A stretch of DNA of 63,032 nucleotides, taken from the IMG/VR virus record IMGVR_UViG_3300035668_000048, positions 1 through 63,032 of that record. One strand, given 5' to 3'. This stretch comes from a virus. Positions within the stretch are counted from its first letter, which is position 1, and the number at the start of each line of letters is the position of its first letter. The translations under genes and the position numbers were made by a program. The notes beneath the pieces were generated by a model. The model was not told where the DNA came from. It ran no database searches and worked only from the letters and a program-made list of their open reading frames with translations. This document shows positions 1 to 39,204 of the stretch, piece after piece.

Positions 1-186
<186 letters not shown>

Positions 187-743: not shown

Positions 744-819
744 AGGAGTGTAGCTCAATTGGTAGAGCACCGGTCTCCAAAACCGGGGGTTGCAGGTTCG
801 AGCCCTGCCACTCCTGCCA
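744..819 (+). tRNA. trnW: tRNA-Trp (anticodon CCA)
   Basis: The acceptor arms AGGAGTG (744-750) and CACTCCT (809-815) pair, the anticodon loop CTCCAAA (775-781) carries CCA at 777-779, the T loop is GTTCGAG, and the 3' CCA is encoded at 817-819. The gene is complete. A tyrosine integrase starts 81 bases downstream, so its 3' half is the probable attachment site, reconstituted by the prophage left end. Confidence 0.97.
782..819 (+). other. Candidate attL core in the tRNA-Trp 3' half
   Basis: Phages with tyrosine integrases usually recombine in the anticodon or T arm of a tRNA and restore its 3' end. The integrase gene follows directly and the host order tuf, tRNA-Trp, secE is interrupted here. 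The exact crossover cannot be set because no second copy of this segment was found in the window. The partner attR must lie beyond 63032 or be absent. Confidence 0.45.
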
Positions 820-900: not shown

Positions 901-1995
901 TTAGCCGTTCGCCTTCTGCCCCAGATTGATCTTGTCCATTCCTTCAGCCGCCATACGTTTTCGATCTGCCGAACGCGTGTAGACTTCGGCTTGGCTGACC
1001 GTTGACCAGTCGAAAATAGCCATGAGTTGCATCGTCGTCGCGCCGTTCTCTGCGGCGATGGTCGCGCCAGCTTTCTTCAGCCCGTGCGCGGTGCAGTGGT
1101 GTAGCCCAGCTTCGTCGCACTTCTCCCGGAACCAATTGCCGAACCCGGCGGGCGTGTACGGTTGGCCCTGATGCGTCACCAAGAACGTCATGGATCCGCA
1201 CGGGCTCGCCTCAACGATCTCGGCAAGTACCGGGAGCCAAGGCTTCTGGGATAGATCCCGGCGCTTGTAGAGCGTTTTCTTTGGCACATAGCGCAGGATC
1301 CCATCCCGGACGTGCTGCTTGCCGAATTTCACCATGTCCTGCCGTCTGGATCCGGTGAACAGCAGGAGCGCCATCGCAAGTCGGGCCTTGGATCCAACCG
1401 GATGGCGGGCTTCGAAGATCTGGACTTCCTCGACGGTCCACGTATGGAACCCGCCGCCCTTGACGCTGCGGCCGGCCTTCACATCCCTGGCCGGATTACC
1501 CGGCAAATGGTCGTGATCGACGCCCCAGCCGCAAAGCGCGGAAAGATGCTTTTTCCGGTTTGCCGCTGCTCCCGGTTGGCCACTTCGGATCTCTATCAAA
1601 CGCCTGATTTTCTGGGCGCTTAAGTACCGGAGAGGGCAATTACCCATCGGATCCGGATCCTCGTCGCTCATAGGATCCCGAAAGCACTGTTCTAGGCATG
1701 AACGGCGGGCGCGCTGCGATTCCTTTGCAAGCCCGGCGAAGTCCTTGCTGGCAAAATAGCGCGCACCCAGCCAGCCCAGCGTCCCCTTGGCGTGTGGCGC
1801 GAGCCCTGGGCCAGCGGCCGTGAAGCCCGGCAGTATCCGCCCCAGCGCGGCGCTGTAGGCCGCCGCGAATTCTGGCGTGCCTTCCCGGATCCGGATCCGG
1901 ATCCGCTTTCCGTTCTTCCTGACGTAGATCCTCTCATTGCCGTGCCGATCATGGTCGCGACTTAAATGCGGAAGATCTGTTTTCATGACCGTCAT
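901..1995 (-). CDS. int: Tyrosine-type site-specific integrase
   Basis: A 364-residue recombinase that would insert and excise the phage at tRNA-Trp. The C-terminal catalytic domain shows Arg217 in FTGSRRQD, a lysine in the YVPKKT hairpin, His304 in AHGLKKAG, Trp330 in FDWST, and the nucleophile Tyr339 in EVYTRSA. The box II position after His304, normally Arg in HxxR, is Lys307 here. The ATG at 1995 was chosen because it overlaps the upstream stop as ATGA and has GGAGG 10 bases before it; a GTG- or ATG-started extension to 2013 is possible. It is the last gene of the leftward operon. The gene holds ten GGATCC sites between 1192 and 1904. Confidence 0.95.
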   Translation of the reverse strand: MTVMKTDLPHLSRDHDRHGNERIYVRKNGKRIRIRIREGTPEFAAAYSAALGRILPGFTAAGPGLAPHAKGTLGWLGARYFASKDFAGLAKESQRARRSCLEQCFRDPMSDEDPDPMGNCPLRYLSAQKIRRLIEIRSGQPGAAANRKKHLSALCGWGVDHDHLPGNPARDVKAGRSVKGGGFHTWTVEEVQIFEARHPVGSKARLAMALLLFTGSRRQDMVKFGKQHVRDGILRYVPKKTLYKRRDLSQKPWLPVLAEIVEASPCGSMTFLVTHQGQPYTPAGFGNWFREKCDEAGLHHCTAHGLKKAGATIAAENGATTMQLMAIFDWSTVSQAEVYTRSADRKRMAAEGMDKINLGQKANG

Positions 1996-2189
1996 GCCCG
2001 CTGATCCTCCCATTTGGAGGCGGGGTCATTTTGAGCATCGGCGGGGATCATGGAAGCGGAATCTATCGGCTTATCCCCTACGATCAGACAGCCATCCGGC
2101 CGAACGCCGATCACAAAACGGCCCGCCTTCTCAACGCCCTTGATGGCGCGAGCAAGCGAGTGTTCGGTGAATGGCAACGCTTTCGTCAT
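1992..2189 (-). CDS. Small integrase-associated protein
   Basis: A 65-residue protein translated just before int and overlapping it by 4 bases. The pattern LPFTEHSLARAIKGVEKAG followed by VRPDGCLIVGD is typical of short proteins encoded beside integrases in rhizobial genomes. An excisionase-like role is possible from position alone, but no winged-helix signature is visible. Function unknown. Confidence 0.75.
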   Translation of the reverse strand: MTKALPFTEHSLARAIKGVEKAGRFVIGVRPDGCLIVGDKPIDSASMIPADAQNDPASKWEDQRA

Positions 2190-13885: not shown

Positions 13886-14205
13886 TCCGCGGTTCCGGCC
13901 GGGAGCAGCGGACCTCGTCGGCACTTAAAGACGACGCCTTCCGGGTCGTTTTGCTTCAACCATGCTTCGGCTTCCTCTTCCGAGTGGAAGGTTTCCAGTC
14001 GGTCGCCGCCCTCATAGAGCCACATATGTTTGGCATTCGGGTCGCGGGCTTCGCGGACGGCTTGGTTGACCTTGTCGCGGTCGAGCCGGTCCTCTGGCGC
14101 GAGAGATGTAACGGCGGCGTGTAGATCTCCGGGGATCGACAAATCGCTGTCTGGCGGCTTCCGCGCCCATTCCTGCCATTGATCGAAGGCGTCTTTAGTG
14201 GTCAT
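13855..14205 (-). CDS. Hypothetical protein downstream of the DNA ligase
   Basis: 116 residues: an N-terminal helical part (DAFDQWQEWARKPPDSDL), then MWLYEGGDRLETFHSEEEAEAWLKQNDPEG, a small alpha/beta unit common in rhizobial hypothetical proteins. ATGA overlap with the ligase indicates an operon. Function unknown. Confidence 0.7.
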   Translation of the reverse strand: MTTKDAFDQWQEWARKPPDSDLSIPGDLHAAVTSLAPEDRLDRDKVNQAVREARDPNAKHMWLYEGGDRLETFHSEEEAEAWLKQNDPEGVVFKCRRGPLLPAGTADQFGVPIAGD

Positions 14206-15125
14206 CCTAGATCCTCCCGTAGTCCTTTGAAAAACGGGTGCCGCACCTTGCCCTCTGCCGACTTCGCTCTGTACTCGATTTCTGCAAGTAGCGACGGTTC
14301 AACCCAAATGCCGCGATGCGCGATTTTCTTTGCGTAGGGCTGCGTCTTGCGGACGAGAGGTTTCAGCCTGGCTCGCAAATCCTTTTCAGACTGTGGCGTA
14401 AAGCCGTGATCGACCTTGCCGGCATAGATGAGCTGGCCGGACTTTTCGCGGCCGATGAAGATGCCATCCCATTTGTTGCCGTCTAGCGCGTACCCGGCGA
14501 TAGGCAGCGTCTCGCGTTGTGCGCACGTGACCTTAGCCCAATCGTTGGTCCGGTCGGTCGGGTAGCGGCTGTCCCGCACCTTGGACACAACGCCTTCAAG
14601 CCCGGCCTTGCACGCGTGCTTGAACATTTCCCGGCCGTCGATCTCAAAGCTTTCGCTAAACTGAATCGCGGTCTTTGCGATCAGCTTTTGCAGAATCGCC
14701 TTGCGCTCCAGGAGCGGCAATTTTCTCAAATCCTGCCCATTGAGATAAAGCAGGTCAAATGCCACCAAGACGATCTTGGTCGACTTGCCTTTGAGTTCGT
14801 TCTGCAAGACGGAAAAATCCGTTGTGCCATCTTCAGCGGGCACGACCACCTCGCCGTCAATGATCGCCGATCCGGCATTGATCAGGTATGCGTCGGCTGC
14901 AATCTTGCGGAAACGCTTGGTCCAGTCGTTTCCACGCCGCGTGTAGACTTTCGTGTCGTCATTGACGATATGCAACTGGACGCGGTAGCCGTCGAATTTG
15001 ATCTCGTGAATCCAACGCTCGCCACTCGGCACTCTTTCAACCTTCGTCGCAAGCGCGAAGGGGACGAAGCCGGGGTACGGCGCTTTCACGCCGATGGCAG
15101 GCTGTTTTCTACGCTGGAATGCCAC
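14202..15125 (-). CDS. ATP-dependent DNA ligase (LigD ligase-domain type)
   Basis: 307 residues from the GTG at 15125, which has GGAG 7 bases upstream; homologous bacterial proteins start at the same AFQRRKQP. Motif I is KFDGYR (Lys43, adenylated), followed by GEVVV near 91-95, FDLLYLNG (123-130), LEGVVSK (176-182) and WAKVT (196-200). An OB-fold domain ends the protein. It joins DNA breaks with ATP. The polymerase and phosphoesterase domains of full LigD are absent. Bacterial stand-alone ligases of this kind serve stationary-phase end joining; here it may aid genome circularisation or be a cargo gene. It is followed by one co-translated gene. Confidence 0.92.
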   Translation of the reverse strand: MAFQRRKQPAIGVKAPYPGFVPFALATKVERVPSGERWIHEIKFDGYRVQLHIVNDDTKVYTRRGNDWTKRFRKIAADAYLINAGSAIIDGEVVVPAEDGTTDFSVLQNELKGKSTKIVLVAFDLLYLNGQDLRKLPLLERKAILQKLIAKTAIQFSESFEIDGREMFKHACKAGLEGVVSKVRDSRYPTDRTNDWAKVTCAQRETLPIAGYALDGNKWDGIFIGREKSGQLIYAGKVDHGFTPQSEKDLRARLKPLVRKTQPYAKKIAHRGIWVEPSLLAEIEYRAKSAEGKVRHPFFKGLREDLG

Positions 15126-15259
15126 TCTAAACTCCACAACAGAACAGGGAGATTCAAAACGTTCCGCGCCGAATCGTTCCGGCGGCTGGAACCTTGAAGC
15201 AGCTTCCAAGTTCCAGAACTGCCGCCACATACAGAGCGGTCTGGCAACGGGAGAACGTA

Positions 15260-22652: not shown

Positions 22653-23675
22653 ATGATCGGCTTGACCCGATATGAGGCGGCCCGCTCTGCGCTCGCGGAC
22701 GCGCGTAGCGTCGACGAGGTTAAGGACATCCACGACAAGGCCGCAGCGATGACGGCCTACGCGCGGATGGCGAAGGACACCCAACTCGAAGCGGACGCTT
22801 CAGAGCTGCGGCTACGCGCCGAGCGCCGGCTGGGAATGATGCTCGCCGAGCAGCGCCGGACGCGCGGGTTGGGCAAGCCTGGGCCGAAGTCGGAATTAAA
22901 TGCCGAAAACGAACTTAATTCTCGGCTCTCGTTAAGTGACATCGGAATCGACAATAAGCTTTCATCTCGCTCTCAAAAGGTAGCCGGCATCGGCGAGCAA
23001 GCCTTTGAGGCTGTGGTCGCTAATGTGCGCCAACGTATCGCCGACCAAAGCGGACGCGTTTCTCTCGATGTGACCGCAGTAGATAAGAAGGCCCGGCGCT
23101 CGGAACGAGAAACCGCACTCGCCGCAGAACAGCGCGCGTTGCCAGATAAAAAGTACGGTGTCATTTACGCGGACCCGGAATGGCAGTTCGAAGTGTACAG
23201 CCGGGACACCGGTATGGACCGCGCGGCCGACAACCACTATCCGACGTCGTCCACGGACTCGATCTGTGCTCGACCGGTGGTCGATATCGCCGCCGATGAT
23301 TGTGCGCTGTTCCTCTGGGCTACAGTCCCGATGCTTCCCGATGCGCTCAAGGTGATGGAGGCTTGGGGCTTCGAGTACAAATCGCATTGCGTATGGGCAA
23401 AGGACCGTATTGGGACCGGCTATTGGTTTCGGAATCAACACGAGCTTTTGCTTGTCGGGACTAGGGGAAAAATTCCAGCTCCTGCGATGGGGACACAAGC
23501 TGAATCATTGGTGGATGCTCCGGTCGGTCGCCATTCGGAAAAGCCGGTCAAGTTCTATGAGTTGATCGAATCCTATTTTCCGAATCTCCCGAAGATCGAA
23601 CTCAATGCACGAGCCGCGCGTCCCGGCTGGGATGCATGGGGATACGAAGCGCCATCGTCGGGGGTTGCGGCATGA
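22653..23675 (+). CDS. MT-A70 family adenine methyltransferase
   Basis: 340 residues. A helical N-terminal region (to about 150) precedes the MT-A70 domain: VIYADPEWQFE with DPEW at 174-177 (phage variant of DPPW), NHYPTSS, CALFLWATVPML, GFEYKSHCVWAKDR, and NQHELLLVGTRG. The product should methylate adenine-N6 in DNA using S-adenosylmethionine. No restriction partner is adjacent. Such orphan enzymes often protect phage DNA or affect gene control. The next methyltransferase overlaps its stop by 4 bases. Confidence 0.92.
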   Translation: MIGLTRYEAARSALADARSVDEVKDIHDKAAAMTAYARMAKDTQLEADASELRLRAERRLGMMLAEQRRTRGLGKPGPKSELNAENELNSRLSLSDIGIDNKLSSRSQKVAGIGEQAFEAVVANVRQRIADQSGRVSLDVTAVDKKARRSERETALAAEQRALPDKKYGVIYADPEWQFEVYSRDTGMDRAADNHYPTSSTDSICARPVVDIAADDCALFLWATVPMLPDALKVMEAWGFEYKSHCVWAKDRIGTGYWFRNQHELLLVGTRGKIPAPAMGTQAESLVDAPVGRHSEKPVKFYELIESYFPNLPKIELNARAARPGWDAWGYEAPSSGVAA

Positions 23676-24820
23676 CGATGGGATCGCATCAAACGTCGAT
23701 CGGCATGAGAACCGATATTCTCATAGGCGACAACCGCGCCATTCTACCGACCCTGTCGGCGGCGTCCGTGCACCTGTGTGCGACATCGCCATCATATTAC
23801 AATCACCGTGACTACGGCATGGCGGCGCAGATTGGGCGCGAGCCGTCACCAGATGATTACGTTGCTGAAATGGTTGCGGTGTTCCGCGACGTTCGTCGTG
23901 TACTGCGGGATGACGGTAATCTGTTTCTGAATTTGGGCGATGGCTACGCGACTGCCGGCACTCGACAAGGCAACGCGACGGGAGGACTCGGCGATCGCGA
24001 CGATGCGCACCGATCAGGCTATCGCGCGCTTCCCGAAGGTTACAAGCCTAAAGACCTGATGGGCATCCCATGGCGTGTTGCCTTCGCACTTCAGGCTGAT
24101 GGTTGGTGGCTTCGCGATGCAATCGTTTGGGCAAAGCCCAATGGAATGCCAGGCTCGCAAGAGGACCGCTGTACGTCGTCTTATGAAATGATTTTCCACA
24201 TGTCGAAGTCCGCAAACTATTGGAGCGACTTCGATGCGATCAAGACGCCACCTCGCGAGTCATCGCTAATCAGAACCGCGCAAGACACTCAGGCGCAGGC
24301 GGGCAGCCATCGCGCTAATGGCGGCAGAAAAACCAACGGCCCCATGAAGGCGGTTGGCGTCAATGCGCGCAAGTCAGACAAGCGGCGCGGTCACTCGCGC
24401 CAACACGCGGGCTTCAATGATCGTTGGGATGCGATGGAACGCGCAGAGCAAATGTCGCGTCCTGCGATGATGCGGAACGTCTGGTTCGTCTCCCCGTCAG
24501 GGTATGACGAAGCGCACTTCGCCGTGATGCCGGATGAAATAGCACGACGCTGCATTCTTGCCGGCTGTCCCGAGGGGGGGCATGTCTTAGATCCCTTCGG
24601 CGGCGCCGGCACAACCGGGCTTGTCGCACGGCAATTGAAGCGCAACGCCACCCTGATCGAACTCAATCCCGAATACGCCACTCTCGCCCGCGCACGTATC
24701 GAAGCAGCCTTCATGGGCAAGGAAGAGGGCGCGCGCCACATGGTCAAGCAACTTGGCAAAGACAAGGTGCCGTTCGCTTCGGACTCTCTATTCGGAAAAT
24801 TACAGGAAGCCGCAGAATGA
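23672..24820 (+). CDS. DNA methyltransferase (beta class, N6-A or N4-C)
   Basis: 382 residues from the ATG at 23672 (ATGA overlap). Catalytic motif CATSPSYYNHRDYG at 37-49 replaces the usual TSPPY by TSPSY. Other motifs are FLNLGDGYATAG, WLRDAIVWAKPNGMP and motif I DPFGGAGTTG (307-316). Residues 200-260 form a basic variable insertion that probably recognises the target. It is the third methyltransferase in a row and no nuclease is nearby. Confidence 0.9.
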   Translation: MTMGSHQTSIGMRTDILIGDNRAILPTLSAASVHLCATSPSYYNHRDYGMAAQIGREPSPDDYVAEMVAVFRDVRRVLRDDGNLFLNLGDGYATAGTRQGNATGGLGDRDDAHRSGYRALPEGYKPKDLMGIPWRVAFALQADGWWLRDAIVWAKPNGMPGSQEDRCTSSYEMIFHMSKSANYWSDFDAIKTPPRESSLIRTAQDTQAQAGSHRANGGRKTNGPMKAVGVNARKSDKRRGHSRQHAGFNDRWDAMERAEQMSRPAMMRNVWFVSPSGYDEAHFAVMPDEIARRCILAGCPEGGHVLDPFGGAGTTGLVARQLKRNATLIELNPEYATLARARIEAAFMGKEEGARHMVKQLGKDKVPFASDSLFGKLQEAAE

Positions 24821-28642: not shown

Positions 28643-28945
28643 ATGGCTGACGTAACCGGACCCATCTCAACACTATCGGGCGCGCACCATGCGGTGCCGG
28701 ACGAAAAGCACAGCCGCATGACCACCTCTCCCCGCCATAGCTGGGGCGCGCGAGTACCGTTTCCGCTTGCGCATAAGACGGAACGCGTCTGCAAAAAATG
28801 CGGACTCGTGAAGGTGACGAAACACGAGTCGGAAGGTCCGCGCGATTTTCACTGGCCTGAATTCTGGCGCGGACTCGACAAGATAGAATCAAGAAACACG
28901 CCTGCATGTATTTCTGTCTCCCTTGAAGTGGGGAGGGCGGCTTGA
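28643..28945 (+). CDS. Zinc-binding protein with the shared MADVTGP leader
   Basis: 100 residues. The first 20 are identical to those of the protein at 10174-10563, while the body is different: an unrelated middle, a CKKCGLVKVTKHE pair, and PRDFHWPEFWRGLDK. The two leaders differ at five of 61 bases, all synonymous. Function unknown. The stop overlaps the methyltransferase start by 4 bases. Confidence 0.75.
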   Translation: MADVTGPISTLSGAHHAVPDEKHSRMTTSPRHSWGARVPFPLAHKTERVCKKCGLVKVTKHESEGPRDFHWPEFWRGLDKIESRNTPACISVSLEVGRAA

Positions 28946-30417
28946 GGTATCTCAGCGTTTGCTCGGGAATCGAAGCGGCGACGGTTGCATGGCATCCGAT
29001 CGGCTGGTCGCCGGTTGCGTTCGCCGAGATCGAGAAATTCCCCAGCGCCGTTTTGGCTCATCACTACGGCAGCAACATGCCAGGCCAGCCGCTATCAACC
29101 AACGGTGTTCCGAATTTCGGCGACATCACGAAATTCAAGGATTGGCCGGATGCAACACTCGATGTTCTCGTTGGAGGCACCCCCTGCCAGTCGTTCTCGG
29201 TCGCAGGATTACGTCAAGGCCTGGCTGACCCTCGCGGAAACCTCTGCCTCACCTACCTTGCGATCGCTGACCGCTATCGCCCCGAGTGGATTCTCTGGGA
29301 GAATGTCCCCGGCGTCCTGTCGAGTGACGGAGGACGGGATTTTGGAGCCTTCCTCGGGGGACTGGGGCAACTCGGGTATGGGTGGAGTTACCGGGTTCTC
29401 GATGCGCAATATGTGCGAGTGGACGGGTTTGGACGGGCTGTCCCTCAAAGACGAAGGCGTGTGTTCGTTGTCGGAAATCTTAGAGACTGGCGACGTGCCG
29501 CGGCAGTATTATTTGAGCGCGAAAGCCTGCAAGGGAATACTCCGCCGCGCCGCGAAGCGGGGCAAGGATTTGCCGGCGCAACTGGCAACGGCGCTACAGG
29601 CTATCGCGAAACAGGACAGGGATGGTGGACTGAAGGAATCGCCGGCTTAAGGGCTGATCCTGGCGGGATGCCTGAAAACGTGGTCGCGCACTCACTCCGC
29701 GCCGAAGGCTTCGACACATCGGAAGATGGAACGGGGCGTGGTACGCCGCTCATTCCTATTGATATGCGACAAGCCTCACGCGGTGACCGCATGACAAATA
29801 ATCGCGCCGACGGTTCGAGCGGCGGCGCTCCCGGCACCGGCATTGGGAAGGACGGCGACCCTTCGCCGACAATCGCGAGTTCGCATATTCCAGCCATCGC
29901 GTTCGCACAAAATCAGCGCGACGAATTAAGAGAGATGGACGTAGCCGGGGCTCTCGCCGCAGAGCCGGGAATGAAGCAGCAGACCTATCTCGCCTTCCAG
30001 AGTAAGGCATCGGCAACGCAAAGCATGGCGCCTGGCGTCGTCACCCCGTCAATTGACGTTGGAAAATGTGATGGTCTAGCCGTAGCATTCGATATGCGCG
30101 GCCGTGAAGGCGGTTCGCAATTCGAGGGGCCGCACGACACTGCCAACATCCGCGCCGCGTCAGGCGGCTCTAGCCGGAGCTACGTAGCCCAGACATGGGC
30201 TGTGCGCCGGTTGATTCCTGATGAGTGCGAAAAATTGCAGGGCTTCAAGCCTGGCTACACCAACATCCCATGGCGCGGAAAGAACGGCGCGCCTGACGGC
30301 CCGCGCTACAAGGCGCTCGGGAATAGTATGGCCGTAAATGTGATGCGATGGCTCGGCACACGGATTCAGATGGTGTCAGAAATTGCGGACGCTCAAGCAT
30401 ATGAGGCCGCAGAATGA
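28942..30417 (+). CDS. dcm: DNA cytosine-5 methyltransferase
   Basis: 491 residues starting at a TTG (TTGA overlap) with GGGAGGG 6 bases upstream; homologues begin at the same RYLSVCSGIEAA. The catalytic PCQ is at 81-83 (GGTPCQSFS), ENV at 120-122, QRRRRVF at 169-175, and GNSMAVNVM near the C-terminus (motif X). The long variable region between about 190 and 440 should hold target recognition and is Gly-rich. It methylates cytosine-C5 in DNA. No restriction enzyme is nearby, so it is an orphan, probably anti-restriction. It is the fourth methyltransferase gene in 9 kb. Confidence 0.93.
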   Translation: MRYLSVCSGIEAATVAWHPIGWSPVAFAEIEKFPSAVLAHHYGSNMPGQPLSTNGVPNFGDITKFKDWPDATLDVLVGGTPCQSFSVAGLRQGLADPRGNLCLTYLAIADRYRPEWILWENVPGVLSSDGGRDFGAFLGGLGQLGYGWSYRVLDAQYVRVDGFGRAVPQRRRRVFVVGNLRDWRRAAAVLFERESLQGNTPPRREAGQGFAGATGNGATGYRETGQGWWTEGIAGLRADPGGMPENVVAHSLRAEGFDTSEDGTGRGTPLIPIDMRQASRGDRMTNNRADGSSGGAPGTGIGKDGDPSPTIASSHIPAIAFAQNQRDELREMDVAGALAAEPGMKQQTYLAFQSKASATQSMAPGVVTPSIDVGKCDGLAVAFDMRGREGGSQFEGPHDTANIRAASGGSSRSYVAQTWAVRRLIPDECEKLQGFKPGYTNIPWRGKNGAPDGPRYKALGNSMAVNVMRWLGTRIQMVSEIADAQAYEAAE

Positions 30418-32063: not shown

Positions 32064-32263
32064 TGCCAGACGCTCCGGCTGATTATGGAATTCGCGGCTG
32101 GCGCTCAACAGGCCGAAAGCGTGTTGTTTGCGGTTGGTTTCGGACCCGCGTCGAGGAATTTTGGGAACACGAATCCGGACGTGCTGAGTGGCGGCGATAT
32201 TCAGGTGTGTTCTACATCGAATCGTCGGATAGCGCTCGTCCTATTCGGCCTAGCTCGCAATAG
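32063..32263 (+). CDS. Small basic aromatic protein
   Basis: 66 residues; the ATG at 32063 shares one base with the upstream TGA. RGWRSTGRKRVVCGWFRTRV, then EEFWEHESGRAEWRRYSG: basic and Trp-rich. Function unknown. Confidence 0.55.
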   Translation: MPDAPADYGIRGWRSTGRKRVVCGWFRTRVEEFWEHESGRAEWRRYSGVFYIESSDSARPIRPSSQ

Positions 32264-32276
32264 AGGGAGAGAGAAA

Positions 32277-33167
32277 ATGGAATCGTGGAAACCTGATCTT
32301 TGCATCTACCACGGCAGTTGCGACGACGGATTCGGAGCGGCGTGGGTTGTTCACAAGGCGTTCGGCGACGACGTTGAGTTCTTTGCCGGCGTGTACGGCA
32401 AAGAGCCGCCGAACGTCGCTGGCAAGAATGTGCTGATGGTCGATTTCAGTTACAAGCGCCCCGTCATTGACGATATGATTCGGTCGGGCGACGTCAATCA
32501 AGCGATGACGCTTCTGATTTTGGATCACCACAAGACGGCCGCATCCGATCTCACTGGGATTGAAAAACCGGAAGGTGGTTACGACCCGTATGTGTGGCGC
32601 AGCAAGTGGGAAGGTGCGATGCAATGGCCTGTCCGCGCCGTGTTCGATATGGAGCGGTCAGGCGCGCAAATCGCGTGGGATTATTTCTTCGATAGAAAAC
32701 CACGGCCCTTAATGATCGACCTTATCGGCGATCGTGATCTTTGGCGTTTCCAATACGGCGACACCACCAAGCAGTTTTCGGCTGCACTCCGAACGTACCC
32801 TATGACGTTTGAAGTGTGGGACCAGATTGCGAGCAACCCGGACGGCTTGATAGAGGAAGGCAAAGGCATCCTGCGAGCGCACAACGCCAACATAGAGAAA
32901 TTCGTGGCGGACAGATATCTCGACGTGATCGACAACATGACGGTTCCGGTTGTCAACGTCCCATATCACTATGCAAGCGATACAGCGCATGCCCTGCTAC
33001 AAAAATGTCCGGAAGCTCCATTCGCGGCTTGCTGGTTTCGGCGCGGCGATGGGATGATCCAGTACTCACTGCGTTCGGAGGATTCGCGCGTTGACGTTTC
33101 CGAGGTCGCCAAGAAGTTCGGCGGCGGCGGACATCGTAACGCGGCGGGATATCAGGTCGCGCCGTAA
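32277..33167 (+). CDS. DHH-family phosphoesterase
   Basis: 296 residues from the ATG at 32277, after GAGGGAGAG. Metal ligands are seen in IYHGSCDDGFGAAW (residues 10-23), VDFSYKRP (55-62) and LDHHK (82-86). The C-terminal DHHA1 part ends GGGGHRNAAGYQV. The family includes RecJ, NrnA oligoribonuclease and cyclic-dinucleotide phosphodiesterases. Substrate cannot be told from sequence. In a phage it may degrade small nucleic acids or host signalling nucleotides. Confidence 0.9.
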   Translation: MESWKPDLCIYHGSCDDGFGAAWVVHKAFGDDVEFFAGVYGKEPPNVAGKNVLMVDFSYKRPVIDDMIRSGDVNQAMTLLILDHHKTAASDLTGIEKPEGGYDPYVWRSKWEGAMQWPVRAVFDMERSGAQIAWDYFFDRKPRPLMIDLIGDRDLWRFQYGDTTKQFSAALRTYPMTFEVWDQIASNPDGLIEEGKGILRAHNANIEKFVADRYLDVIDNMTVPVVNVPYHYASDTAHALLQKCPEAPFAACWFRRGDGMIQYSLRSEDSRVDVSEVAKKFGGGGHRNAAGYQVAP

Positions 33168-34163: not shown

Positions 34164-34384
34164 CTGCGGTCGCAGAAAAACCAGGTCTGACGCTGAAGCA
34201 GAAGATCGTCTGCGACCTCGTGGTGACCGGGCTATCCAGCAAAGAGATATCGAGGCGATTGGGCATAAGCAAGCGCACAGTCGATTCGCACCGTGTCGAG
34301 GTCTATCGCAAGAAAGGCGTGAAGAACGCCGTCGAACTCGTTCGACTCCTAATGACCGAAGAAGGGATCAAGGCTCATGGCTGA
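34160..34384 (+). CDS. Stand-alone LuxR/GerE-type HTH regulator
   Basis: 74 residues, only the HTH: LTLKQKIVCDLVVTGLSSKE, ISRRLGISKRTVDSHRVEVY, KKGVKNAVELVRLLM. The recognition helix TVDSHR matches the LuxR/FixJ class. It lacks any receiver or ligand domain, so activity should follow its amount. It stands just before the NusG-like gene and the late genes, and is a good candidate for a late-gene activator. Confidence 0.85.
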   Translation: MTAVAEKPGLTLKQKIVCDLVVTGLSSKEISRRLGISKRTVDSHRVEVYRKKGVKNAVELVRLLMTEEGIKAHG

Positions 34385-34811
34385 TCAGTATTGGGCGGCG
34401 TGTCGGGCGACTCCAGGTCGCGAGCATCTGGTTCGGTCTGAGATTGAGAAGCTAAACCATGGCGCGATACTGCCGACCTACGCGAGGACATGGATATCCG
34501 ACGGCAAGGTAAGTTGCCGCGAAACCGTGCTGATGCCTGGCTATGTGTTCTTCAGAACAGAGCCAAAAGGGTGGGGTGCCGTCAGCAACATTGCTGGCGT
34601 TGAAGGTGTGCTGTCTTACGTAACAAAGGCAGACGATGTCATGGCGAAACGCGTCTCAGACGTGGAAATGGCACGTTTGATCGTTGGCGATTTCACCGGC
34701 GACCATGATTGCATCCAGACTGATCCGACTAGTGAGAGGCGCGAAAGAGTGAGGAGACGCCGCCCGCGACCGGGCAAGCGGATCAAGAAGCGCCACCGCG
34801 CGTCACCGTAG
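34377..34811 (+). CDS. NusG/RfaH N-terminal-domain protein
   Basis: 144 residues. The NGN fold is visible: QYWAACRATPGREHLVRSEI, GAILPTYARTWISDGKV, MPGYVFFRTEPKGWGAV and IAGVEGVLSYVTKADD. In place of the KOW domain there is a basic tail (RRERVRRRRPRPGKRIKKRHR). NusG-type proteins bind the RNA polymerase clamp and suppress pausing. Losing KOW should cut the link to ribosome and Rho, so antitermination of the late operon is likely. It overlaps the LuxR-type gene by 8 bases. Confidence 0.85.
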   Translation: MADQYWAACRATPGREHLVRSEIEKLNHGAILPTYARTWISDGKVSCRETVLMPGYVFFRTEPKGWGAVSNIAGVEGVLSYVTKADDVMAKRVSDVEMARLIVGDFTGDHDCIQTDPTSERRERVRRRRPRPGKRIKKRHRASP

Positions 34812-34842: not shown

Positions 34843-34968
34843 AGCACGGTCAACAATGTATCTTGCGGGCGCTTATGGCGCGATGTGGTACGGAATGTTA
34901 ACCGCCTTCCCGCGTTTGGTGGCAGATGGCTCAGAAAAAATGGTCTGAGCACGACGGGGAAATGCGCG

Positions 34969-35433
34969 TTGAGCACTAAATACCAGCGTTGGTATTCGGC
35001 GCTCATTGAGCGCGCAAGGTTCCGAAAAATTCCATCATGCTACACGGAAATTCACCACATCGTTCCACGGTCAATTGGCGGGGACGATTCACCGGATAAC
35101 CTTGCTCAGCTCACATACCGCGAACACTTCATTGCGCATTGGATTCTGACGAAGATCACCACAGGCGGTGCGCTGCGCAAGATGCAACGCGCCCTGTTCG
35201 CGATGACGCTAAAATGCAGCGGGGAACGAGTGACTACGGGTTGGCAGTTTGAGGCTGCCAAGCGTGCGGTTAGAGACCTTGAACTAGACCCGGAAGCAGA
35301 GCGGCTTTGGTATGAAAAATGGAGCGTTTCCCGCTCGCACATCGGTGGATTTGCTAAGCGCCAAAGCCGGAAGAACAAGCGACCAAGCAGGCGCACCAGA
35401 AACATAAACCAAGCAGAGCGTCAATTTCGTTAA
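34969..35433 (+). CDS. HNH homing endonuclease beside the tRNA
   Basis: About 154 residues from a TTG at 34969, with GGGGAAA 7 bases upstream; a GTG at 34885 would add 28 residues. YTEIHHIVPRSIGGDDSPDN and LTYREHFIAHWILTKI are the HNH core of free-standing phage homing nucleases. A basic C-terminal tail (RQSRKNKRPSRRTRN) should bind DNA. The stop codon ends one base before the tRNA starts, so the enzyme may have arrived with, or target, the tRNA region. Confidence 0.85.
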   Translation: MSTKYQRWYSALIERARFRKIPSCYTEIHHIVPRSIGGDDSPDNLAQLTYREHFIAHWILTKITTGGALRKMQRALFAMTLKCSGERVTTGWQFEAAKRAVRDLELDPEAERLWYEKWSVSRSHIGGFAKRQSRKNKRPSRRTRNINQAERQFR

Positions 35434-35510
35434 CGTAGGGTAGAGCAGTCCGGTAGCTCGCCACGCTCATAACGTGGAGGTCACGGGTTCAAATCCCGTC
35501 CCTGCAACCA
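35434..35510 (+). tRNA. Prophage initiator-like tRNA-fMet (CAT)
   Basis: 77 bases with encoded CCA at 35508-35510. The acceptor arms CGTAGGG and CCCTGCA leave a C1-A72 mismatch, the mark of bacterial initiator tRNA; A11-U24 in the D stem (AGAGC with GCTC) is also of initiator type. The anticodon loop CTCATAA carries CAT. In the anticodon stem (CCACG/CGTGG) the three innermost pairs are A29-U41, C30-G40, G31-C39 instead of three G-C pairs. T loop GTTCAAATC is intact. It is the first element of the late region. Confidence 0.93.
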
Positions 35511-35754: not shown

Positions 35755-35990
35755 CCGCAACCGTTCTCGCATTCCCCACACCATCACCACGAGACGGTGG
35801 GAGGGCGCGGATATTGCGGCGTCGTGATGGGTTGTTCGGCATATCGCCAGTTGAGCAGTGTCGACGAGACCTGCAGGCGTGGCGCAAGTTAGTGGAACCA
35901 ATCACAGGTGATGACCTGACGATGCGATGTGCGGACCCGGAAGATACGGCGCCAGCGGAATATGTGGCTCCAGCATACGGTGGGGCATGA
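35751..35990 (+). CDS. Small hypothetical protein
   Basis: 79 residues from a GTG (GTGA overlap). MTATVLAFPTPSPRDGG resembles the IIPFR-type starts of its neighbour. A basic region (RARILRRRDGL) and an acidic end follow. Function unknown. Confidence 0.6.
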   Translation: MTATVLAFPTPSPRDGGRARILRRRDGLFGISPVEQCRRDLQAWRKLVEPITGDDLTMRCADPEDTAPAEYVAPAYGGA

Positions 35991-36391
35991 ACGTGGCGAA
36001 GGACACCTTTGACGTTCTGCGCAGGCTGGTCGATGAGGTCGAATATAAGCCGGGTTGGGCATTCGATATAGTCAACGAGGATGGCGCACTCCGTCTCAGG
36101 ATCACGGACATGAAGTGCGTGGATGCCTACAATCCTGGCCGTCCGATGCCACTCTCGCATATGCATCCGGTCCCCACCGCGACCTACAACGAGAAGACTT
36201 GGAAGCGGTGGATATTCGAGCAATGTCGTCGCGTCGAGAACCACGAAATCGGAGAATGGCTGCGATGGGGTGACGAGCGTCCGTTCGCACCGCTGCATGG
36301 CCCAGGCGAAGACCCTTACACCGTGCACGAGTATCGTCCTGAGGTGGACGCCCTCACCACGCAAAACGGTAGCTTGCGCGCACGTTCGTAA
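35987..36391 (+). CDS. Conserved phage protein near the terminase
   Basis: 134 residues from the ATG at 35987 (ATGA). EYKPGWAFDIVNEDGALRLR, then RPMPLSHMHPVPTATYNEKTWKRW and RVENHEIGEWLRWG match a family often encoded just before terminases. Function unknown. Confidence 0.7.
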   Translation: MNVAKDTFDVLRRLVDEVEYKPGWAFDIVNEDGALRLRITDMKCVDAYNPGRPMPLSHMHPVPTATYNEKTWKRWIFEQCRRVENHEIGEWLRWGDERPFAPLHGPGEDPYTVHEYRPEVDALTTQNGSLRARS

Positions 36392-36880: not shown

Positions 36881-37489
36881 TTGGTTAGGTGCGAACTAGT
36901 GCGAACAAGAGAAGGAAATTCTACGGACTGGGTTCGTATAGGTGAGGTCTACTGCAAAGAACTCGTTTCAATTCGGGCCTTAGCGAAGAATTTCGGCGTT
37001 TCCGATACGGCTGTTCGAAAAGAGGCAAAGAAGCGCGGCTGGACCCGTCCCGATGCGAACCAGTCGCCCCGCGAACCTGAGTGCAAACCAAGTCGCGAAC
37101 CGGAACAAAACGGGTCGCCCGAGGCCACCGCTAAGGCAATAGCCTCTACGCCGGTCAAGGTGCTGACGGCCCGCGGTCGCAACATCATCCTGGACCTGAT
37201 GGACGAACTGGAGTTCTTGAACCGGAACCATCAGACCATCGCCGATATGGTTCTGGACTACGTGAATGGTGAAAAGGATTCGTCCGCTCGGGCAAAGCTG
37301 CTCAAGGTCTTGGATCATGAGACGCGGTCAAAGACTGCGAACTATCTTGCGACCGCGCTCGCGAAACTGAACGACGCGGCGCCGGGCAAGAAGGATGAGC
37401 AGAACGACGCCGCATCCGGCGTGGCTGCTGGCGGCGACAACGAATGGGGGGACGATCTCGCGGTGCCGGCGGGCCGGCAGTTTAACTGA
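36881..37489 (+). CDS. terS: Terminase small subunit
   Basis: 202 residues. The start is a TTG at 36881 (AGGGGG 4 bases upstream) or a GTG at 36899. An N-terminal HTH (LVSIRALAKNFGVSDTAVRKEAKKRGW, split as about residues 29-55) recognises the packaging site. An oligomerisation helix region (ILDLMDELEFLNRNHQTIAD) and an acidic C-terminus follow, the latter to contact the large subunit. Its stop is shared with the next start (TGATG). Confidence 0.85.
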   Translation: MVRCELVRTREGNSTDWVRIGEVYCKELVSIRALAKNFGVSDTAVRKEAKKRGWTRPDANQSPREPECKPSREPEQNGSPEATAKAIASTPVKVLTARGRNIILDLMDELEFLNRNHQTIADMVLDYVNGEKDSSARAKLLKVLDHETRSKTANYLATALAKLNDAAPGKKDEQNDAASGVAAGGDNEWGDDLAVPAGRQFN

Positions 37490-39204
37490 TGGGCATGGTC
37501 GTTAGGGACTGGTCAACAAAATGCGTTGATTGGGAAGATCGGATCGTTAACGGCGTCTCGCTCATTCCGGATAACATCCGGGCGGCGCTATTCGAGGACG
37601 AGGCCGAACGGGCGCTCCGCATCTTCAAGCGGCTCAAGTGTCCGGACATTGAAGGGTTCCCCACTTACGGGGAGATTTGCGACGACTGGGTCTTTGACCT
37701 GGTTCGGGTGATATTCGGTTCTTACGACGCATCGATCAAGCGTCGGATGATCCGAGAGTTTTTCCTACTCATCCCGAAGAAGAACGGCAAGAGCACGCTA
37801 GCCGCTGCGATTATGGTTGTCGCGGCCATCATGAACCACCGGCCGGCCGCCGAGCTATTGTTGATCGCGCCAACCATCAAGATTGCCGAACGGGCCTTCG
37901 GTCATGCGCACAAGATCATCCAGCTTGATCCTGCTCTAACGAAACTCTTTCACGCGCAGCCGCACAACCGGACAATCACTCACCGCAAAACGTTGGCGGT
38001 GATCCTTATAAAATCCGCCGATAAGGATGTCATCACCGGGTCGCTTGCGACCTTCATCCTAATCGATGAAACCCACGTGTTCGCCGCGAAGGTTCGCGCC
38101 GCACAGGTCTTTCTTGAAATCCGCGGCTCGCTTGCGTCTAGACCTGACGGCTTCTTAATCCAGATCACGACGCAATCGAAGGAGACTCCGTCCGGAGTGT
38201 TTAAGGAAGAGCTTGGAATTGCGCGCGATGTCCGCGACGGCAAGCTTATCCTCCCGCTGTTGATGTTTGGCTACGAGCTGCCGGTTCGGCTCGCAAAAGA
38301 TAACGGTTGGGAAAATCAAGAGCTTTGGCCGCTCGTAAATCCGAACTACGACCGTTCGGTCGATCCATCATTCCTTACCGACGAACTCATTAAGGCGAAA
38401 GCAAAGGGGCCAGTAGCGCTAGCGCTGTATGCATCTCAGCATTTCAATGTTGAAATCGGCATTGGCCTTCGAACGGATGGTTGGGCGGGCGCAGCATTAT
38501 GGCCGCGTGGTGCGGAAAGAGGACTAACATTTAACGAGGTTCTAAGGCGCTCAGAGGTGCTGACGAACGGCATCGACGGTGGCGGCCTCGATGATCTGCT
38601 TGGCGTTTTTGTCGTAGGTCGTGAAAAGGGAACGGGTGTCTGGCTTAGTTGGGCGCACGCATTTATTTCGCCCGAAGGCTGGGAAAGACGACAAGCTAAC
38701 CAGGCGGTCTATCAGGATTTCATCAACGACGGGGATCTGACGCTCGTTGAGCGCTTACCGGACGACGTGACTGCGGTCGTCGACATCGTGAAGCAATGCC
38801 TCGACTCCGGTAAACTTGCGAAAGTCGGCTGCGACCCCGCAGGCCTTGGCTCGATCGTTGACGAACTAGCCAAGATCGGCGTGACGCAGGAAAACGAATT
38901 GCTGGTCGGCGTGCGCCAAGGTGTCGCGCTGATGGGCGCGATCAAAACGGTAGAGCGAAAACTCGCGGACAACAGTTTCAAGCACGGCGGCCGTCGCATG
39001 ATGGCGTGGTGCGCCGGCAACGCGATCGTGCAAGCGACAGGAACGGGAATGCGGATTGCGCGCGATGCATCCGGCTACGGAAAGGTCGATCCGCTGATGG
39101 CATGTTTTGATGCGGTTGCTGAAATGTCGCTCAATCCGGCCGCGAAGGGTAATTCTTTCTGGGATGCGCCCGACGCTGTCGAGAGACTGCGGCACGTTGG
39201 ATGA
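37489..39204 (+). CDS. terL: Terminase large subunit
   Basis: 571 residues. The ATPase has Walker A PKKNGKST (96-103) and Walker B ILIDETH (190-196). The nuclease domain starts near [17 protein letters not shown], with a second acidic cluster at [12 protein letters not shown]. This motor pumps DNA into the prohead and cuts it. The family is HK97-like (Terminase_1/3 type), consistent with the HNH partner upstream. Confidence 0.95.

Follow-up and report, generated by a model that had tools for sequence, protein, structure and literature searches.

The anticodon stem of the initiator tRNA contains three G-C pairs that are said to be nearly universal and have been the subject of mutational work for decades. 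The marks that separate initiator from elongator tRNAs are established knowledge, and C3-G70 is named as a pair helping formylation (PMC7949028). In a laboratory variant of the E. coli tRNA-fMet, called M1, pair 30-40 is turned from G30-C40 into C30-G40 (PMC11497404). According to PMC11497404, which cites Mandal 1996 on this point, translation initiation with M1 falls about 20-fold in vivo in E. coli. The same paper describes that 16S rRNA A1339 and G1338, which grip pairs 30-40 and 29-41 respectively, make weakened contacts with M1, that discrimination against CUG is lost in vitro and restored by IF2, and that in E. coli work GUG and UUG complexes are destabilised (PMC11497404). Initiator tRNAs encoded by phages are also known, from phiLM21-like prophages of S. 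meliloti (PMC12429752) and from Komagataeibacter phage phiKX1, where the host stem is kept.

The window analysed here is the whole stretch of 63,032 nucleotides from the IMG/VR virus record IMGVR_UViG_3300035668_000048 (positions 1 to 63,032). Like the phiLM21-like prophages, it encodes an initiator-type tRNA, and the tRNA has at 30-40 a swap identical to that of M1. It differs from M1 in being natural and phage-borne, in having A29-U41 where M1 has G29-C41, and in other changes of the stem.

Bases 1-186 have matches in Hyphomicrobiales, the best of them in genomes close to Bradyrhizobium; judging by the gene order and the known tuf-trnW-secE arrangement, we take this segment to be the 3' end of tuf. 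The tuf end is followed by a tRNA-Trp and then by a tyrosine integrase (Table 1), which identifies the element as a prophage integrated at tRNA-Trp. No repeat of the tRNA-Trp of 12 nt or more occurs elsewhere in the window, and attR therefore probably lies beyond it. A role of the phage tRNA in tRNA-dependent lysogeny was considered and is not supported, because integration is at an intact tRNA-Trp, whereas the phage tRNA is an initiator Met. The genes around it follow the order DHH phosphoesterase, NusG-like antiterminator, HNH gene, tRNA, small genes, small and large terminase, and then portal, head protease, major head protein and tail. The earlier note had put the tRNA first in the late region, and this agrees with its co-directional position between the antiterminator/HNH pair and the terminase genes. 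The HNH stop codon directly abuts the 5' end of the tRNA, and no promoter or terminator signals beyond background were found near it. With no space for a promoter between the HNH gene and the tRNA, and nothing above background in the scan for promoters, the tRNA is likely co-transcribed with the upstream genes.

Table 1. Features of the prophage and of its initiator-type tRNA (positions in the window)
Feature	Position	Strand	Remarks
tuf 3' end (host, presumed)	1-186		left prophage border
tRNA-Trp (host)	744-819	+	likely attL; isotype differs from phage tRNA; ARAGORN, Rfam
Tyrosine integrase	901-2013	-	Pfam Phage_integrase 1e-8, PHROG 1
ATP-dependent DNA ligase	14202-15230	-	minus-strand block
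Three DNA methyltransferase genes	22653-24820, 28942-30417		MT-A70, N6/N4 and C5 types; ParB-like gene between
DHH-family phosphoesterase	32085-33167	+	upstream of antiterminator
NusG-like transcription antiterminator	34377-34811	+	Pfam NusG 1.5e-7, PHROG 6386
HNH homing-endonuclease-like gene	34885-35433	+	PHROG 655 homing endonuclease 6.1e-35, Pfam HNH
Initiator-type tRNA-Met(CAU)	35434-35510	+	77 nt; encoded CCA, C1xA72, A11-U24, C30-G40
C30, 5' partner of flipped pair	35464	+	gene index 31; pairs with G40
G40, 3' partner of flipped pair	35474	+	gene index 41
PHROG 1540 gene	35927-36391	+	between tRNA and terminase
Terminase small subunit	36881-37489	+	PHROG 1206, 2.4e-21
Terminase large subunit (TerL)	37489-39204	+	Pfam TerL_ATPase/TerL_nuclease, PHROG 9 1.9e-96

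The gene is a genuine tRNA of the initiator class. ARAGORN placed a tRNA-Met(cat) at exactly 35434-35510 on the + strand, and the Rfam tRNA model scored the same interval at 62 bits (E 5e-11) against a cut-off of 29, both with a cloverleaf and a CAU anticodon; a non-functional tRNA, which the earlier note had named as one way of being wrong, is thus not borne out. Reading the letters of the gene confirmed the C1-A72 mismatch, A11-U24, CAT anticodon and encoded CCA reported there. In the acceptor stem, C1xA72 (no Watson-Crick pair at 1-72) is followed by G2-C71, a U3.G70 wobble and A4-U69, while the D-stem has a purine 11-pyrimidine 24 pair in A11-U24. The anticodon stem reads C27-G43, C28-G42, A29-U41, C30-G40 and G31-C39, the anticodon loop CUCAUAA and the T-loop UUCAAAU. 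The tRNA lacks the E. coli-type set of three G-C pairs (29-41, 30-40, 31-39), which is no strict definition of an initiator here, G29-C41 being absent from chromosomal initiators of the host class as well. Identity as an elongator Met or Ile2 was checked and rejected: the nearest chromosomal matches in three host-family genomes, at 85% identity, have an initiator D-arm and loop.

The anticodon stem had been called atypical, and this holds for one of its pairs. An initiator pattern matched 119 of 150 genomes of the host family, usually with a single match each, and every match listed has the stem TCAGG/CCTGA (A29-U41, G30-C40, G31-C39), except two extra copies in one Bradyrhizobium genome (G001). 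The same stem occurs almost throughout the alphaproteobacterial-type copies among the matches listed in a phylum sample. By these surveys, A29-U41 is what alphaproteobacterial hosts ordinarily have, and of the three pairs C30-G40 alone departs from host tRNAs. The phage and host initiators have in common C1xA72, A11-U24, CUCAUAA, A29-U41, G31-C39 and encoded CCA; the phage tRNA is unlike the host one in C30-G40 (G30-C40 in the host), U3.G70 and C27-G43, and in 13 of 77 positions in all. A host tRNA-fMet of identical sequence was sought and none was found. Among the three host-family genomes that match most closely, the best chromosomal matches reach 85%, the next ones being weak or partial, and the only closer copy (92%) is on a 10-kb Bradyrhizobium contig which encodes a portal protein and is also listed as a viral contig (L087).

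The 13 differences consist of five compensatory pairs (4-69, 27-43, 30-40, 50-64 and 51-63), one one-sided change (C3-G70 to U3.G70, at the formylation-related pair mentioned above) and two single-stranded positions, with no broken pair. Five or more compensatory pairs did not occur in any of 200,000 trials with 13 changes placed at random. The tRNA is nearer to other phage tRNAs (six differences from L084, seven from L161) than to the host initiator.

The earlier note had stated that phage tRNAs are usually elongators, but the rarity that this implies for phage initiators does not stand: a scan blind to the anticodon stem found initiator-type tRNAs in at least 120 viral contigs, some of them host copies at att sites, and they occur also in named phages and in the S. 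meliloti prophages. Three public phage records, PV416405, MZ188970 and KF669650 (L223, L224 and L271), contain initiator-type tRNAs that are unannotated. After removal of host copies, the stem-blind sample comprised 74 distinct phage-type sequences. In these, pair 29-41 varies freely (AU 37, GC 19, UA 18) and pair 31-39 varies too (GC 57, CG 11, others 6), while pair 30-40 is G-C in all 74. A flipped 31-39 pair (CCAGC/GCTGG) was seen in L144, L195, L204, L217 and L278, the last being Rhizobium phage RHph_TM3_3_3. With the initiator pattern, neither A-U nor U-A was found at 30-40 in the whole viral collection. Moreover, C30-G40 was never combined with U29-A41 (0 of 35 sequences, vs 18 of the 74 phage initiators with G30-C40; p 0.0006), an avoidance that persists at the level of the 25 C30-G40 clusters (p 0.0015). 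Because A1339 and G1338 grip exactly these two pairs, the pattern fits selection on the ribosomal grip of pairs 29 and 30, as would be expected for use in the P site.

The C30-G40 set amounts to 35 distinct sequences in 25 clusters. A tight C30-G40 pattern matched 15 viral contigs, and a single contig among 84,980 species genomes, which is a Bradyrhizobium phage fragment. When the pattern was loosened, it matched 41 viral contigs and, in one of 376 alphaproteobacterial and one of 398 phylum genomes, that same fragment; for comparison, an initiator pattern of similar type, limited by the D-arm, finds a copy in 224 of the 398 phylum genomes and in the 119 of 150 family genomes. Within these pattern-limited searches of public sequences, which outside this phylum used the tight pattern only, C30-G40 initiators looked virus-restricted. 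No other viral contig was found to have the window's own D-arm together with an NCACG/CGTGN stem.

The slot ahead of the terminase recurs in unrelated phages, one of them rhizobial. Rhizobium phage RHph_TM3_3_3 has a NusG-like antiterminator, tRNA-Met(cat), a DUF2280 gene in the small-terminase position and TerL; its initiator is thus in the same slot between antiterminator and terminase as in this prophage, but with pair 31-39 flipped instead of 30-40. In Phage CBW1004C-Prop1 the order is Q, GIY-YIG, tRNA, lysis and terminase, and in Clavibacter phage CN1A an initiator that lacks annotation lies ahead of TerL. Of the 20 loci in which TerL could be recognised by means of a small TerL panel, 19 have the tRNA on the TerL strand, mostly 0.1-5 kb upstream; the sample is partly redundant and includes two loci (L037, L071) that were found via TerL. 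A fixed neighbouring gene family is not supported, as the genes next to the tRNA vary widely between phages. In L086 (2909-4128) and L095, the C30-G40 initiator is 40 nt behind an RNA ligase gene of the T4 Rnl1 type.

It is conceivable, although improbable, that the tRNA is a passenger that matters little for fitness and was brought along by a homing endonuclease or by recombination between phages. The HNH gene abutting it, the HNH genes that adjoin several other phage initiator copies, the GIY-YIG gene of Phage CBW1004C-Prop1 and the tRNA-Pro found in this slot in L008, a relative whose terminase is similar, would all agree with this. However, folding and initiator identity have been kept in full despite 13 changes, and A-U is wholly absent at 30-40 across the viral contigs.

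We consider it rather probable, judging from the sequence comparisons, that the gene is instead a functional phage initiator tRNA maintained by selection, which would boost or replace the host fMet-tRNA pool in late expression. The tRNA would be transcribed as part of the late operon, behind the NusG-like antiterminator, and the transcript would be trimmed by RNase P and then charged and formylated, so that the fMet-tRNA pool would be enlarged or replaced at the time when late genes have to be initiated at high rates. Since most family genomes have a single match to the initiator pattern, the number of phage copies could matter, and one replicating phage copy might cause a strong dose change where the host has a single initiator gene. 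With C30-G40, A1339 would still meet a G:C pair in its minor-groove contact, though in inverted orientation, and the flip may be either tolerated, IF2 compensating in vitro, or selected. The complete retention of folding and identity, the greater closeness to other phage tRNAs than to the host, the late position with its recurrence in other phages, and the constraint on pair 30-40 count for a selected, functional initiator. Against this reading count the lack of a promoter signal above background, the widely varying adjacent genes, which would suit a mobile passenger, and U3.G70 in place of C3-G70; the roughly 20-fold loss with M1 in E. coli, as cited in PMC11497404, also argues against plain supply, unless host factors differ.

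The phage copy might also serve counter-defence, replacing a host initiator that VapC-type nucleases, or others acting on tRNA, have cut, with a changed anticodon stem that hinders recognition. The cut made by VapC toxins in initiator tRNA falls between the stem and the loop of the anticodon arm, and one such toxin comes from Bosea, which is related to rhizobia and has only one initiator gene (PMC8522696); the VapC target, however, is generally avoided by phages as cargo (PMC10264068). Phage tRNAs have been proposed to evade anticodon nucleases (PMC10264068), but such evasion changes are reported from the anticodon loop, which is unaltered here, and the differences are scattered over acceptor, anticodon and T stems. 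The Rnl1-kind ligase gene in L086 and L095 would suit such a role, whereas the scan of window proteins turned up no gene for RNA repair. PADLOC reported in the window DNA methyltransferases and one marginal match, none of them tRNA-related. On balance, we regard counter-defence as unlikely.

A further possibility is that an M1-like phage initiator relaxes discrimination and so lets translation of some phage or host genes begin at unusual codons. Such retuning is suggested by the identity of the swap with M1, which loses CUG discrimination in vitro and has a weakened A1339/G1338 grip (PMC11497404), and by the recurrence of C30-G40 in 25 clusters. In the window, however, Shine-Dalgarno matches ahead of CTG (0.088) do not exceed background (0.092), as compared with 0.279 for ATG, 0.140 for GTG and 0.125 for TTG. 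Pooled C30-G40 loci gave no clear CTG signal either (0.084 vs 0.051), CTG being no better than CTA (0.080). CTG starts are therefore not supported; as IF2 restores discrimination in vitro and GUG and UUG complexes become weaker, not stronger (PMC11497404), we think retuned start selection quite unlikely. The earlier suggestion of a shift towards GTG and TTG starts would run the wrong way, if the E. coli results carry over, and the Shine-Dalgarno matches favour ATG.

While phage and prophage initiator tRNAs were already known, from the S. meliloti prophages (PMC12429752) and from named phages, we met no description of a natural, virus-restricted C30-G40 class in the literature searched, which lies mostly outside subscription journals and contained no report of any natural C30-G40 initiator. 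The swap by which the E. coli initiator is crippled in laboratory work, by the account cited in PMC11497404, occurs naturally and repeatedly in phages and, within the searches described above, in phages only. Only tentatively, one may suppose that phages repeatedly evolve it as a working variant, as a nuclease-resistant or distinct pool for late initiation complexes that is barred in host chromosomes. The C30-G40 class makes testable why phages carry initiators at all, be it dose, escape from tRNA-cutting defence, or start-site choice.
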